DNA from: Acidimicrobiia bacterium
Lineage (GTDB): Bacteria; Actinomycetota; Acidimicrobiia; Acidimicrobiales; Bin134
NCBI GenBank assembly: GCA_022822905.1
Contig: JAJDYE010000006.1
Coordinates: 124,001-188,000, forward strand
Length of the DNA: 64,000 nt
Direction: 5' to 3'
Under the pieces are notes generated by a model, which worked only from the letters and a program-made list of their open reading frames with translations, ran no database searches and had not been told where the DNA came from. The translations under genes and the position numbers were made by a program. Of the stretch, positions 47,374 to 51,521 are shown piece after piece; within the stretch, counting starts at the first letter, position 1, and each line of letters starts with the position of its first letter.

Positions 47374-48201
47374 ATGCTGGTAGTGACCGATCTAGATCGA
47401 ACGCTCTGGGGCTTGGACTGTGTCGCGCCGACGGCCCACTTGGAGGCGCTGGCCGAGCTCGAGTCGGCAGGACATGTCGTGCTGGCGGCCACCGGTCGTC
47501 GGTTGCTGAACATCGCCCGCCTGTTCGACTTGAACGGTCTCCGATTGCCCGCGGTAGCCCTCGACGGATCGATCGGGATGGACTTTGCCACCATGGAGCG
47601 CTTCCACCGCATTGCGTTCGACCCGGCGGTTCTGTGGGAGCTATTGGACGTTCTCGACACCCAAGGCATCCGCCCCTGCCTCTACATAGACGACCACAGT
47701 GAGCCTGGCGGCGACGTAGTGCTGCCGAAGTACCCCACCAGCGAACCCACCCACTTGGAGTTCCTCGAAGAAGACATCAACCACGCCCTCAGCCCCGCCG
47801 ACGTCGAGGCCGATGTACTGGAGTTGGTGTTGACCGGCCTCCCATCAGACCTCGCTCACCGGACGGCCAAGGAGGTCCATTCAAGGTCGCTAGGAGTCGC
47901 CCGCGTCGACGAACCCGACCCGCTCTACGGAGGAAGCCGCCTGACAGTGTCACCCCCCGGGATATCCAAGGTCTCCGGAGTGGAGGCCTTCTGCCAATGG
48001 CAAGGCCACGAGTTCGACTTCGCCGCCATCGGCGACGGAGTAAACGACCTAGAACTCCTAGAAGCCGCCTCCATCAGCATCGCCATCGCCGGCAGCCACG
48101 CCAGCCAAGCCACCACCCCCCACCACACCATCCCTCCCCCCGAAAAATCCGGCTGGGCCACAGTGCCCCAACTTGTCGATTCTTGGCGACACAATCTTTA
48201 G
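47374..48201 (+). CDS. HAD-superfamily phosphatase, Cof type
   Basis: A 275-aa haloacid dehalogenase-like hydrolase. Motif I is VTDLDRTLWG with nucleophile Asp6 and acid Asp8, motif II AATGRR, and motif IV IGDGVNDLELLEAA with the metal Asp pair; a Lys in SPPGISKVSGV occupies motif III. Relatives dephosphorylate sugar phosphates and cofactor intermediates. It starts 21 bp after the MscS stop. Confidence 0.9.
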   Translation: MLVVTDLDRTLWGLDCVAPTAHLEALAELESAGHVVLAATGRRLLNIARLFDLNGLRLPAVALDGSIGMDFATMERFHRIAFDPAVLWELLDVLDTQGIRPCLYIDDHSEPGGDVVLPKYPTSEPTHLEFLEEDINHALSPADVEADVLELVLTGLPSDLAHRTAKEVHSRSLGVARVDEPDPLYGGSRLTVSPPGISKVSGVEAFCQWQGHEFDFAAIGDGVNDLELLEAASISIAIAGSHASQATTPHHTIPPPEKSGWATVPQLVDSWRHNL

Positions 48202-48245
48202 TTTGCGGCGCATGGGTGTCGCCGCTCGGGGGTAGGGTTACGATC

Positions 48246-49430
48246 ATGGCAGCCTCTTCGTTGTGCTATCCCAGTGCAGTACCGGTTGAAGACGCCTGCC
48301 GGGCTTTTGGCGATGAGCCGGCGGCTACTCGGTTCTTGGAACAGGCCCGGTGGCCAGGGGGGCCTGCTTGTCCCCGTTGTGGGGCGAAGGCGAAGAGCCG
48401 GTTCCCCGATGATGCCGGGAGGAGATGGTGCGGCCGATGCCGGCGACGGTACAGCGTGCGCACGGGTACGATCCTGGCCAACGGGAATGCGCCCCTGCGA
48501 GGGTGGGCAGTGGGAGCAGTTCTCACCTCCAACGGCCCGTTCACAGCCAAGCCAGGGGCGCTGAGCAGGCTGGACGGGGTTTCACCGGGGGCAGCGCGAG
48601 CAATTGCCGACGGCATTCGCTTAGTGTGCGGAAGCCGGGTCAGCCCTTATGACCAGCCCGAGCAGCTCGCGGCCCGGATCACCCGGGCGAACGGCCAGGA
48701 CAGGGAGGTGGGACCCAACCGATCCAGCGAGGGGTCCGCGTTGAACTGGATGCACTGGTCGCCTGACCGCCAATTCGCGGTTCCAGCCAGTGCAGAGCGC
48801 TGGCTGACGCCCCCTGCTCCACCCGAGCAATTGCCGGCATCGCTGCCACCCCATCCCCGCCCCGACATCACTGCGGCAGAAGTGCTGGTTTTGACCGTGC
48901 TGCGCTCCTATCTGGGTGGTGCCGACTCAGCGGTTATCGGCGACGCCGCGGGCATCGCCCGGCGCAGCGCACAACGGGCGCTTCGACGCTTGGAAGCCGA
49001 CGGGTACGTCGACTCCGCATTCGCCGAGGTGCCCTGGAAGCACCGAACCCGGCGGATACTGAGATGGAAGCTGGCCCAGGGCGGCCAACTCGACGACCTG
49101 CGCCCCTATCTGCCGATGATGCGCTGGGCTCGGCGCTCCCGGTGCCCCGAGACGCTGCCCCCCGACCTCTGGCACCTGTTCTGGTCGGGCCCCGACCCCG
49201 CCGACATCCGGCTTCCCCGCGACGCCGTGCTGGTGGCCAACCGGCTGCTCAACGGAAGGCTGTTGGACTTCGACGCCCGCCGATGGGCACTGCGCTGCCT
49301 CCCGCTTGACGCCCTCGCAGCGCAGACCGGGATCCCAGGATGCCCCAGGAGCGTCGAACTGGCCGTCGCCGAACTCGTCGAACAGGAATCGGGCCAACCA
49401 AACCGACAGCCGGAGTACTGGGTCCGATGA
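48246..49430 (+). CDS. IS1595-type zinc-ribbon/winged-helix fusion protein, probable antitoxin partner
   Basis: A 394-aa protein in three parts. Residues about 20-110 match the N-terminus of IS1595-family transposases: FLEQARWPGGPACPRCG, then C-x2-C (RRWCGRCRRRYSVRTGT), LPL-like APLRGW, and LSRLDGVSPGAARAI resembling the HTH before the catalytic domain. No DDE domain follows. At about 215-265 is a winged helix (VLTVLRSYLGGADSAVIGDAAGIARRSAQRALRRLEADGYV). The last 80 residues (LPPDLWHLFWSGPDPADI, ANRLLNGRLLDFDARRWALR) resemble the domain paired with AbiEii toxins. It overlaps the next gene by 4 bp. Confidence 0.75.
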   Translation: MAASSLCYPSAVPVEDACRAFGDEPAATRFLEQARWPGGPACPRCGAKAKSRFPDDAGRRWCGRCRRRYSVRTGTILANGNAPLRGWAVGAVLTSNGPFTAKPGALSRLDGVSPGAARAIADGIRLVCGSRVSPYDQPEQLAARITRANGQDREVGPNRSSEGSALNWMHWSPDRQFAVPASAERWLTPPAPPEQLPASLPPHPRPDITAAEVLVLTVLRSYLGGADSAVIGDAAGIARRSAQRALRRLEADGYVDSAFAEVPWKHRTRRILRWKLAQGGQLDDLRPYLPMMRWARRSRCPETLPPDLWHLFWSGPDPADIRLPRDAVLVANRLLNGRLLDFDARRWALRCLPLDALAAQTGIPGCPRSVELAVAELVEQESGQPNRQPEYWVR

Positions 49431-50119
49431 ACCAGATCGACGACTGGCGGGAGGTGATCGGCCATCGCCAGCGGGCCGTGTGGCCCAAAGCGGCGGCCGC
49501 CGCGGCCGAATGCGGGGGCGTGCTAGTCGGAGGCACCGCGGTGGCCATTCACCTGAGGCACCGCCTCAGCGAAGACATCGACATCTTGGCCCCCGGCCCC
49601 TTCGACACTGCGGGTGCGAGATCGCAATTGGAGGAACAAGCCGACGAGTCCTTCACGATGATCGGGTTGAGCTCCCACGAGGTTCATGCCCTGGTCGACG
49701 GGGTGAGCGTACACATATTCGAAGACCCCAACGCCGAATCCCGCACCGCTGCCGTGGCGGTGTTGAAGCAGGGACCGGAGATCGACACGATGCCGGTGGC
49801 ATCGCTGCAAGACCTCCTGGCCCTCAAACTCGATCTGATCCGCTGGCGAAGCACGCTGCGAGACTTGATCGACCTTGCCGCCATCGACCAGCTCAGCGGG
49901 CACCGCCTAGAAGACGGCCTGTTCTACTGGCTACAGAAATTCGGGGCCGAATGGGACAACGCCGCGCTCGACCAGCTCGTCTTCAGGCTGAGGTTCCCCT
50001 CCGCCGAAAACGCCGACCCCCTCTTCGACGAGTCCCGCGACCAGATCATCGCCTACCTCAAGAAGCGAGCCCCCCAAATAGAACAAGCCCTACACCAACG
50101 CCGAACAGCAGCCCACTAA
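49427..50119 (+). CDS. AbiEii/AbiGii-like nucleotidyltransferase, probable toxin
   Basis: A 230-aa nucleotidyltransferase of the AbiEii toxin group. LVGGTAVAIHLRHRLSEDIDIL carries the GG(T/S) and the D-x-D metal pair, followed by SLQDLLALKLDLIRWRSTLRDLIDLAAI, the family helical region with KL-x-x-x-x-R and RDLIDL. AbiEii-type toxins transfer nucleotides to tRNA or other targets and are silenced by their partner. The ATG overlaps the fusion gene's stop (ATGA), so the two form a pair. Its tail overlaps the opposite gene at 50058-51176 by 62 bp. Confidence 0.83.
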   Translation: MNQIDDWREVIGHRQRAVWPKAAAAAAECGGVLVGGTAVAIHLRHRLSEDIDILAPGPFDTAGARSQLEEQADESFTMIGLSSHEVHALVDGVSVHIFEDPNAESRTAAVAVLKQGPEIDTMPVASLQDLLALKLDLIRWRSTLRDLIDLAAIDQLSGHRLEDGLFYWLQKFGAEWDNAALDQLVFRLRFPSAENADPLFDESRDQIIAYLKKRAPQIEQALHQRRTAAH

Positions 50120-51176
50120 CAAACCACACCAAGCCGCTGGTCAACCGCCCTGAGCCATCCCGCCCATCGGAAGAGTCAGAACCCCTGTTGCGGCGGGCAG
50201 CTTCCTCGGCAGCGGCAACAATCACGGCGGCCTGGTCCTTGATAAAGCGGGTTACCTCGACCAAGCTCACGTTTTTGGTGGCCCGGTAAGCCAGTACGCC
50301 GGTGGTGATGCCAACGATGAGCGCTGTTCCCGCAGAGGCACCGATTGAGCCGATCACTGCGACGGCCATCAGGCTGGCCCCGGAGGTCGCGGCACCTTTG
50401 AACGCGCCATCGGCGAGCTCGGCGAACTCCTCGGCGCTGCTGGCCTTGTTGTAGGCCCGGCCCATGGCAACCACCGACACCACCATCAACAACGGGTTCG
50501 TGCTGACCGCGGCCGACATGCCGACGGTCGAGGCAATCCGGGCGAATTCCTCAGTGTCAGCGCGGTTCCAGCCAAAGATCACCGACACCACCCCGATGGA
50601 GGCCCCCAGCAGGTCGGCCGCGTCATAGGTGTTCAGCTCGTAAAACCAGCTCTTGGGAATCCCGAACCTCGAATTCAAAGAGCCCGCCACCGAATCGAAA
50701 GTGCTCTTGTCCCAGGTGGCCAGCGGCAGCCCCCGGGGGGTCGACGCGTCCTTCATCAGCGCCTTGACCGTTCCCAAGGCCTCCTGCACCACCGTGTCGT
50801 CCGCCGACACCCCCCTTGCGGCCCTAGCCGCCCCGGCAATGGAATGGCCCCCATCAAACAGCCGGTGATAGCTGCCACCTAGTCCGGAGCGCTGCGCCGA
50901 ATCAAGATAGTTGGCGTCCATCGCCTTGTCGTAGACCGTCGGAGCCCCCTTCACCGCCGCAGCCACCAACCGGTTGAGGCTCCCAGAGAGATCACTAGCC
51001 ACCAAAGCCTGCGCCACCGACAAGACCCGCCCCGCACGCTCCTTCGCCCCATCAATCGCCGCCCGACTCCCAACCCGAACCCTCCAAGCCGCCACCATCC
51101 CCACCCCAGCAACCTTCGCCAAACCCCGCGAGCCGCGAGCCGCCATCGCACTCTTGACCTTCTTCATCGAAGACAT
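50058..51176 (-). CDS. Predicted membrane protein of unknown function
   Basis: A 372-aa protein; no family recognised. ATG 51176 follows a GGGAGG site. The N-terminus is basic (MSSMKKVKSAMAARGSRGLAK). Residues about 225-315 hold two hydrophobic, Gly/Ala-rich segments (VGMSAAVSTNPLLMVVSVVAMGRAY; ASLMAVAVIGSIGASAGTALIVG), and a single hydrophobic helix occupies the C-terminus (LVWFVSGLLFGVGVGLVLFGG). Could be an effector that inserts in the membrane. Its end overlaps the convergent nucleotidyltransferase gene, and it is near a divergent small gene. Confidence 0.7.
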   Translation of the reverse strand: MSSMKKVKSAMAARGSRGLAKVAGVGMVAAWRVRVGSRAAIDGAKERAGRVLSVAQALVASDLSGSLNRLVAAAVKGAPTVYDKAMDANYLDSAQRSGLGGSYHRLFDGGHSIAGAARAARGVSADDTVVQEALGTVKALMKDASTPRGLPLATWDKSTFDSVAGSLNSRFGIPKSWFYELNTYDAADLLGASIGVVSVIFGWNRADTEEFARIASTVGMSAAVSTNPLLMVVSVVAMGRAYNKASSAEEFAELADGAFKGAATSGASLMAVAVIGSIGASAGTALIVGITTGVLAYRATKNVSLVEVTRFIKDQAAVIVAAAEEAARRNRGSDSSDGRDGSGRLTSGLVWFVSGLLFGVGVGLVLFGGLAS

Positions 51177-51275
51177 GGATACCTCCCCATCGAGGTGACC
51201 GCCAACGGGATGATCCTCAATGGTCCCTCCTCCGACCCCTCTATCAGCGCTCAGATCGTGCAACGAGAGGCCAGA

Positions 51276-51521
51276 ATGGAATCGAACGGGCAACTTGTAG
51301 ACTTTGCGGTGATACTCCAGGTCAGCAGAAACGGCAACGACTGGGACGATCTTGTGAGGATCGACACCGCCCACCGAGTTGTGCACGTCCACCGACCAGA
51401 GGCCGGGGGCAATGTGCACGACACCACTCTTGTACCTCGAGAGTGCCGCCACGACATTGATCTGGCCTGGGAATGGGCTAAGAATTACGCTTGGGACCAA
51501 GCCACGAGGGAGATCATGTGA
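51276..51521 (+). CDS. Small protein of unknown function (toxin-like, possible DUF7718/TumE relative)
   Basis: An 81-aa protein from ATG 51276, chosen because GAGAGG lies 6 nt upstream and it leaves 99 bp to the divergent membrane-protein gene; GTG 51195 or ATG 51210 would extend it by up to 27 residues. FAVILQVSRNGNDWDDLVRIDTAHRVVHVHR is a strand-rich region ending in a His-x-His-Arg pair, and HDIDLAWEWAKNYAWD a helix. This recalls small toxin-like families with R-x-D-T-A-H motifs. It overlaps the next gene (TGATG). Confidence 0.55.
   Translation: MESNGQLVDFAVILQVSRNGNDWDDLVRIDTAHRVVHVHRPEAGGNVHDTTLVPRECRHDIDLAWEWAKNYAWDQATREIM

Follow-up and report, generated by a model that had tools for sequence, protein, structure and literature searches.

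We analysed a window of 64,000 nucleotides from an Acidimicrobiia bacterium (GCA_022822905.1, contig JAJDYE010000006.1) and concentrated on two of its genes, here called A and B, whose reading frames overlap at ATGA. Gene A encodes a regulator whose front half aligns with the DNA-binding half of IS1595 transposases, and gene B encodes a nucleotidyltransferase of the AbiEii/DUF1814 type. The fusion in A is real, conserved and selected, and it sits in a toxin-antitoxin-like pair. The parts of the two genes are as follows (positions in the window; aa, amino acids).

48246..49430, + strand: gene A, fused regulator and putative antitoxin, 394 aa (open reading frame and Pfam)
48279..48632, + strand: A, IS1595-transposase-like DNA-binding half, zinc ribbon plus helix-turn-helix (profile, alignment and substitution ratios)
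48312..48446, + strand: A, PF12760 zinc ribbon, residues 23-67, with four cysteines (Pfam)
48693..48830, + strand: A, linker, residues 150-195, low-confidence and probably disordered (predicted local distance difference test, pLDDT, < 50)
48864..49073, + strand: A, MarR-like winged helix, residues 207-276 (MarR_2 match below cut-off; predicted fold)
49146..49391, + strand: A, C-terminal helical domain, residues 301-382, putatively toxin-facing (substitution ratios, motifs, weak relation to DUF6922)
49427..50119, + strand: gene B, AbiEii/DUF1814 nucleotidyltransferase and putative toxin, 230 aa (Pfam, predicted fold)
49529..49582, + strand: B, motifs I and II (G35 G36 ... R46 ... D50 x D52), invariant in 39 sequences
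49826..49873, + strand: B, motifs III and IV (K134 ... R141; R145-D146-x-x-D149), invariant in 39 sequences

The motif definitions are those given in PMC3985639.

The initial annotation had proposed that A begins with an IS1595 transposase N-terminus and has no DDE domain, and this was confirmed. Pfam PF12760 (Zn_ribbon_IS1595) matched residues 23-67 with an E-value of 7.3e-11 (42.3 bits, cut-off 25.4), inside the interval of residues 20-110 where the match had been expected, and A gave no match to the DDE domain, PF12762, at E <= 1. Residues ~1-128 of A aligned with the DNA-binding half of 12 IS1595-type transposases from genomes of the same taxonomic order. The shared elements include the two Cys pairs, SVRTGT, LDGVSPGAARAI and the helix-turn-helix, and the alignment stopped just before the first catalytic Asp region and the DDE domain. 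Among the 12, PF12762 was confirmed by Pfam in L105 and L106; most of the transposases from the genus of the window lie where the PF12762 search of the genus genomes gave a hit, and four (L019, L023, L024 and L025) come from other families. A profile of the fused module, built partly from A itself, matched A at E 1.4e-39. A module tree, from which we left out near-copies, decayed copies and the form with the zinc ribbon alone, held 20 of the 32 fused modules; these formed one group, separate from the 12 transposases (88/97, not starred).

Such a front half could be passive, the debris of a transposon joined to A by chance and forming no functional part of it. Relatives of A that have intact reading frames and lack the module do retain the same core and B, and a form that keeps the zinc ribbon without the transposase helix-turn-helix occurs in L087, L088 and L173, as debris might allow. 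The substitution pattern argues the other way. Across nine orthologues of the long class, to which the copy in the window belongs, the ratio of nonsynonymous to synonymous substitution (dN/dS) in the transposase-derived part was ~0.15: the medians were 0.155 for the zinc ribbon and 0.151 for the helix-turn-helix, versus 0.438 for the linker, 0.200 for the winged helix and 0.504 for the short stretch after it. The C-terminal domain (residues 301-370), at 0.127, was the lowest of the six parts. Moreover, the four cysteines (CxxC..CxxC) were intact in 31/32 fused modules, the exception being the decayed L107. The zinc ribbon is thus under purifying selection, which favours recruitment over debris. 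The fusion also occurs in three families, and 14 of the 22 genomes of the genus, the window's own included, had no PF12762 match at E <= 1e-10, the other eight having one. Passive debris is, in our view, very unlikely.

The fusion is not confined to the window. Protein searches of 60 genomes gave a match to A in 23 (transposases counted) and to B in 19. A profile of the core of A, that is, the winged helix and the C-terminal domain, matched 28/248 genomes of the order and 22/396 genomes of the phylum; 12 of the latter matched weakly (best E 1e-8 or above), were taken as generic helix-turn-helix matches and were dropped. The set we analysed comprises 69 core loci scoring 60 bits or more; those below 60 bits (among them L186-L188 and L195-L198) were dropped, and two short core fragments (G012:C206 and G021:C66) lie outside the set. 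The transposase half was present in 32 loci from 20 genomes in three families of one Acidimicrobiia order. The genus contributes 27 of these loci, spread over 16 of its 22 genomes; the other five come from four genomes belonging to two further families. Outside the order, the fusion was missing from all six core loci (L189-L194), and the close-relative records of A were from Acidimicrobiia or Acidimicrobiales, one being labelled merely 'bacterium'. With 32 loci carrying it, the fusion is far beyond chance.

The two genes travel together. A match to B lay at most 400 bp downstream of A and on the same strand in 65/69 core loci (broken or split B counted), and B adjoined A in 30/32 fused loci. 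The four core loci without B are L104 and L183, where the contig stops at or close to the locus, the decayed L107, and L176, whose remaining 706 bp showed no B. The protein distances of the A core and of B were correlated (r = 0.932 for 56 pairs and 0.839 for 30 non-redundant pairs, with 0/2000 permutations reaching either value), and shared ancestry alone accounts for part of this correlation. Both the recurrence of the fusion and the conservation of the pair as neighbours, as foreseen in the initial annotation, are therefore borne out by these counts.

Several genomes hold more than one pair. The window's own genome has a second, diverged pair at G000:C31:18577-19982 (L095, 6500-8046), in which A seemingly lacks a normal start and B is broken mid-gene. 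At 5636-9610 of L084 (G015:C52) two different pairs stand side by side, their fronts being a zinc ribbon and a ribbon-helix-helix, respectively, and an additional B-like gene precedes the pair at 7009-9379 of L083 (G011:C61). Genome G117, from another family, gave seven core matches (L161-L163, L166-L168), the most of any genome in the order search.

Behind the transposase half, A is built of a winged helix and a C-terminal domain. MarR_2 matched residues 207-256 below the cut-off only (Pfam, E 1e-4), and the best match to the predicted fold of the winged helix was a MarR regulator (Z 11.2, root-mean-square deviation (rmsd) 1.7, 74 residues). The C-terminal domain has conserved FW, RLP and WAL motifs. 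Its proposed likeness to DUF6922 held weakly for the family and failed for the window protein: PF21956 (DUF6922) matched 3/48 members of the A family at E <= 0.01 (of those viewed singly, L193 matched in the C-terminal domain above the cut-off, at E 1.6e-6, and L192 below it), and A itself gave no Pfam match to DUF6922 at E <= 1.

The same core carries other front ends. We classified these by reading the N-termini by eye together with weak Pfam and NCBIfam matches, and built a tree of 50 of the 69 cores. MerR/excisionase-like helix-turn-helix fronts accounted for 13 rows, ribbon-helix-helix fronts for three, and 13 rows had no recognised module. All 21 zinc-ribbon rows, together with five module-less rows, fell on one side of a 99/94 branch, and a single clade made of the zinc-ribbon rows alone was rejected (p-AU 5.6e-5). 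The simplest reading of the trees would be one capture of the transposase half followed by several losses; they would also accommodate repeated capture from closely related transposases. Separately, the PADLOC mad1 model matched 7/48 relatives of A (best E 4.8e-11); the helix-turn-helix at the front of MerR-like members may account for these matches.

Gene B was matched by PF08843 (AbiEii) at E 2e-11 (44.7 bits, cut-off 22.5), and so were 39/39 members of the B alignment at E <= 0.001; PADLOC AbiEii matches to B were weak (best E 1.6e-5). The published DUF1814 motifs I-IV (hG[G/S]..DhD with an Arg, K..R, and +DxxD; PMC3985639) are all present in B, and G35, G36, R46, D50, D52, K134, R141, R145, D146 and D149 were invariant in the 39 sequences. 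The structure of B was predicted with a pLDDT of 92.9, and its nearest fold was JHP933 (Z 14.1, rmsd 3.9, 191 residues), followed by MenT1 (Z 12.8, rmsd 3.8, 167 residues), MenT4 (12.5, 4.2, 205) and MenT3 (11.5, 4.4, 197). The dN/dS of B was 0.213 over eight orthologues. The initial annotation was thus right to see an AbiEii-type nucleotidyltransferase overlapping A by ATGA. Nor does B look like a housekeeping gene, since it is patchy in its distribution and sometimes broken.

The pair could still be a regulator-enzyme operon without toxin-antitoxin behaviour, in which B normally modifies a small molecule or RNA and A only represses. B is a putative toxin, and its fold also resembles two antibiotic nucleotidyltransferases, ANT(2'')-Ia at Z 10.5 and LnuA at Z 9.5. 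However, the JHP933 and MenT structures outrank both of these enzymes, PF08843 is found throughout the B alignment, and the residues of the four motifs do not vary. The gene order and the repeat-bearing promoter resemble those of AbiE (PMC3985639), and the pair is patchily distributed, present in multiple copies and in places broken. We consider an ordinary operon of this kind rather unlikely.

MenT toxins add to tRNA 3' ends (PMC10435456), and antitoxin-induced phosphorylation of MenT1 T39 and MenT3 S78 is reported as a restraint (PMC11375011). In B, the invariant S48 stands two residues ahead of the first Asp of D-x-D, as T39 stands ahead of D41 in MenT1. Its placement would equal that of the MenT3 phosphoacceptor S78 if D82 of MenT3 (from a Protein Data Bank title) is the second Asp. 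Given the fold near MenT and the MenT1-like position of S48, a tRNA substrate and restraint by phosphorylation would be reasonable guesses, no more. The B proteins of L081 and L087 have a C-terminal tail rich in Cys and His, a possible zinc binder.

The DNA immediately upstream of A contains a candidate operator.

48183..48245, + strand: long-class promoter/operator-like block, conserved in an alignment of nine loci
48185..48192, + strand: left arm of an inverted repeat, GGCGACAC
48216..48223, + strand: right arm of the inverted repeat, GTGTCGCC

In the window the block reads GGCGACAC-N23-GTGTCGCC, a perfect 8-bp inverted repeat, and a -10-like TAGGGT lies at 48233-48238, 7 nt before the ATG of A (leaderless-like). 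About 55 bp of this block, immediately before A, are common to the nine long-class copies; their upstream flanks are mostly unrelated, though not all independent (G000 and G005 represent one site, and G010 and G021 are alike). A 27-letter pattern of the block (<=3 mismatches) was found in 6/22 genus genomes, once in each and always before A, and the reversed pattern was not found in any of the 22. The long-class copies of G005, G010 and G014 are too diverged, with five, four and four mismatches to the 26-letter form. Because the block has no second copy in those six genomes, its sequence suggests an operator dedicated to the promoter of the pair itself, and points to autoregulation more than to recognition of foreign DNA. 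The initial annotation had proposed that a transposase fragment was recruited as a DNA- or target-sensing part: the purifying selection supports recruitment, whereas target sensing gains no support from a putative operator that occurs only in front of the pair.

The block differs in most medium-class copies and in the three ribbon-helix-helix copies. The medium block (<=1 mismatch) occurred at eight genus sites, six of them before an A gene (one being the decayed L107) and two at remnants. From these sequences we infer that each class may have its own operator, which the front module would help to read. The remnants, L220 (G016:C25:31563) and L221 (G008:C23:51736), consist of the medium-class promoter and the first codons of A only; L220 is a scar in G016, a genome that yielded no pair, and L221 lies downstream of B in G008 as an additional copy. 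We also tried the module-less L077 as a medium-class gene stripped of its module and operator. This candidate was rejected: a tree grouped L077 with the module-less L167 (97/92, starred), and its missing block therefore says little.

Comparison with sites that lack the pair outlined the inserted unit.

48170..50190 (approximate), no strand: whole unit, between a HAD hydrolase gene and an uncharacterised gene (50061-51500, - strand), delimited by breaks of homology with pair-less sites

The HAD gene was present in 18/22 genus genomes, and A and B lay behind it in two of the 18 (G000 and G005). Within 1.5 kb behind HAD at the other 16 sites, the gene corresponding to 50061-51500 (- strand) was seen in nine, the luciferase-like gene of the window in two, and none of the window's genes in five. 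Homology with pair-less sites ended on the left at 48169-48181 in 7/8 sites (at 48200 in L233) and resumed on the right at 50191-50230 in the 4/8 sites that align well there (L229, L234, L237, L242). The ~2-kb unit is probably mobile. The gene at 50061-51500 (- strand) encodes an uncharacterised protein of 480 aa that matched no Pfam family at E <= 0.001; the C-terminal end of this protein has no counterpart in relatives, extends into the inserted unit and overlaps the 3' end of B. No phage record matched the pair, viral contigs held no relative of the window A protein or of the medium-class protein of L082, and four plasmid records matched the front part of A only, in genes annotated as transposases.

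These boundaries raise the idea of a non-autonomous mobile element, with the transposase half of A reading the end of the unit and IS1595 transposases moving it in trans. The conserved block does start within ~15 bp of the left insertion boundary, most copies have unrelated upstream flanks, and the pair is missing at 16/18 HAD sites. Against an element of this type, no shared right end follows B across eight long-class and eight medium-class loci, so that the left block has no paired counterpart. We looked for terminal inverted repeats at five transposases and 19 loci; a clear one flanked a transposase in L101 (G029) only, and L200 gave a 16-bp candidate. By eye, the conserved block and the operators are unlike these repeats, and we do not use IS1595 ends as the source of the operator in support of any reading. 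The single occurrence of the long block in each of the six genomes and the 14/22 genus genomes without an IS1595 DDE match also speak against movement in trans, to which we give the least credence of all the readings considered.

Taken together, these results are probably best explained by a mobile, autoregulated toxin-antitoxin pair of the AbiE/MenAT kind, whose antitoxin gained the DNA-binding half of a transposase. From the comparisons above we infer toxicity, neutralisation, DNA binding, substrate and route of movement. B would be the toxin, a DUF1814 nucleotidyltransferase whose most likely target, as for the MenT toxins, is the 3' end of tRNA. A would be both the antitoxin and the repressor of B: its C-terminal domain would restrain B, and its winged helix, together with the IS1595-derived zinc ribbon and helix-turn-helix, would hold the conserved block that overlaps the promoter. 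The transposase half would have been captured, probably once, in an ancestor within the order, onto a regulator made of the winged helix and C-terminal domain, and through this capture the pair would have acquired an operator of its own and one more module for reading DNA.

A number of observations weigh against this interpretation. A had no AbiEi family match at E <= 1 in Pfam, NCBIfam or PADLOC, the models used for this check (the COG5340 and COG4861 models were not among them), and the same three libraries gave no AbiEi family for the 48 relatives of A either, among the first 25 of 42 families in the case of Pfam. The rows of the fold search with A were taken up by the winged helix, so that the C-terminal domain was hardly sampled and little fold information was gained on it; AbiEi and Rv2827c structures lay outside the rows shown, which, in a list dominated by the winged helix, is no evidence of a difference. 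The fold of B is also like that of ANT(2'')-Ia, as noted above. Regarding the operator, the perfect 8-bp repeat is found in the window alone among the nine loci, its arms being partly retained elsewhere; L090 and L104 have a medium-like zinc-ribbon A, yet lack the medium block; and the winged helices differ between the classes just as the blocks do, so that either DNA-binding module could be the one that reads the operator. Finally, 6/22 genus genomes have no fused copy (two of them are just 68% complete), and there are broken copies, with B broken in L095 and split in L091, and A split in L092.

The diversity of front ends allows a broader reading, in which the pair belongs to a lineage of exchangeable cartridges: the antitoxin front (MerR-like, ribbon-helix-helix, none or transposase) would be swapped, each front with its own operator, so that copies are insulated from one another. 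The IS1595 capture would be one such exchange, possibly with a fossil of the terminal sequence serving as operator. We hold this as a tentative and somewhat doubtful possibility. On the preferred reading, a mobile pair with a transposase-fronted antitoxin, the locus is an apparent bacterial case of the DNA-binding half of a transposase working as the regulatory front of an antitoxin, which selection has preserved in several species and which nested branches lack. This DNA-binding part has an unusual origin, and the locus offers a test case for possible changes of operator specificity in toxin-antitoxin pairs through module swaps; such swapping bears on the coexistence of several related pairs in one genome. 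The pair also adds an antitoxin-like family, for whose window member, A, PADLOC-DB 2.0.0 gave no match.

How does the pair compare with known systems? In a literature search by titles and the starts of abstracts, with subscription papers and preprints mostly outside it, we found no IS1595-antitoxin fusion of this kind, nothing on one among papers that link AbiEii with Acidimicrobiia, and no mention of DUF6922. Two papers name both AbiEii and IS1595, and by title and abstract start neither deals with such a fusion. With the DUF6922 family (PF21956), A is linked by the 3/48 members that match, one of those viewed being above the cut-off, whereas the window protein itself falls short of a match. 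With IS1595 transposases (PF12760 plus PF12762), A shares residues ~1-128, four cysteines included; it differs in lacking the DDE domain, and its modules form their own group in the tree. With the MenAT systems of M. tuberculosis, the likeness is on the side of B: MenT1, MenT4 and MenT3 rank right after JHP933 in the fold search, and a Ser of B occupies the position of the MenT1 phosphoacceptor (PMC11375011). The MenA antitoxins, in contrast, comprise three families, and in our searches A fell into none of the known antitoxin families; a zinc ribbon or transposase part is not noted for MenAT in the available parts of PMC10435456 and PMC11375011. Compared with AbiE, A differs in having no AbiEi match in the databases searched, a short C-terminal domain and the extra transposase-derived front half, and B, with 230 aa, has 13 residues between motifs I and II versus 15. 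The likeness to AbiE lies in the architecture as described in PMC3985639: the regulator gene comes first and the DUF1814 nucleotidyltransferase second, the promoter has an inverted repeat, and all four toxin motifs are present. Like AbiEi, A has a winged helix followed by a C-terminal domain; in AbiEi, the N-terminal winged helix represses and the C-terminal domain suffices for neutralisation (PMC3985639, PMC7319586).

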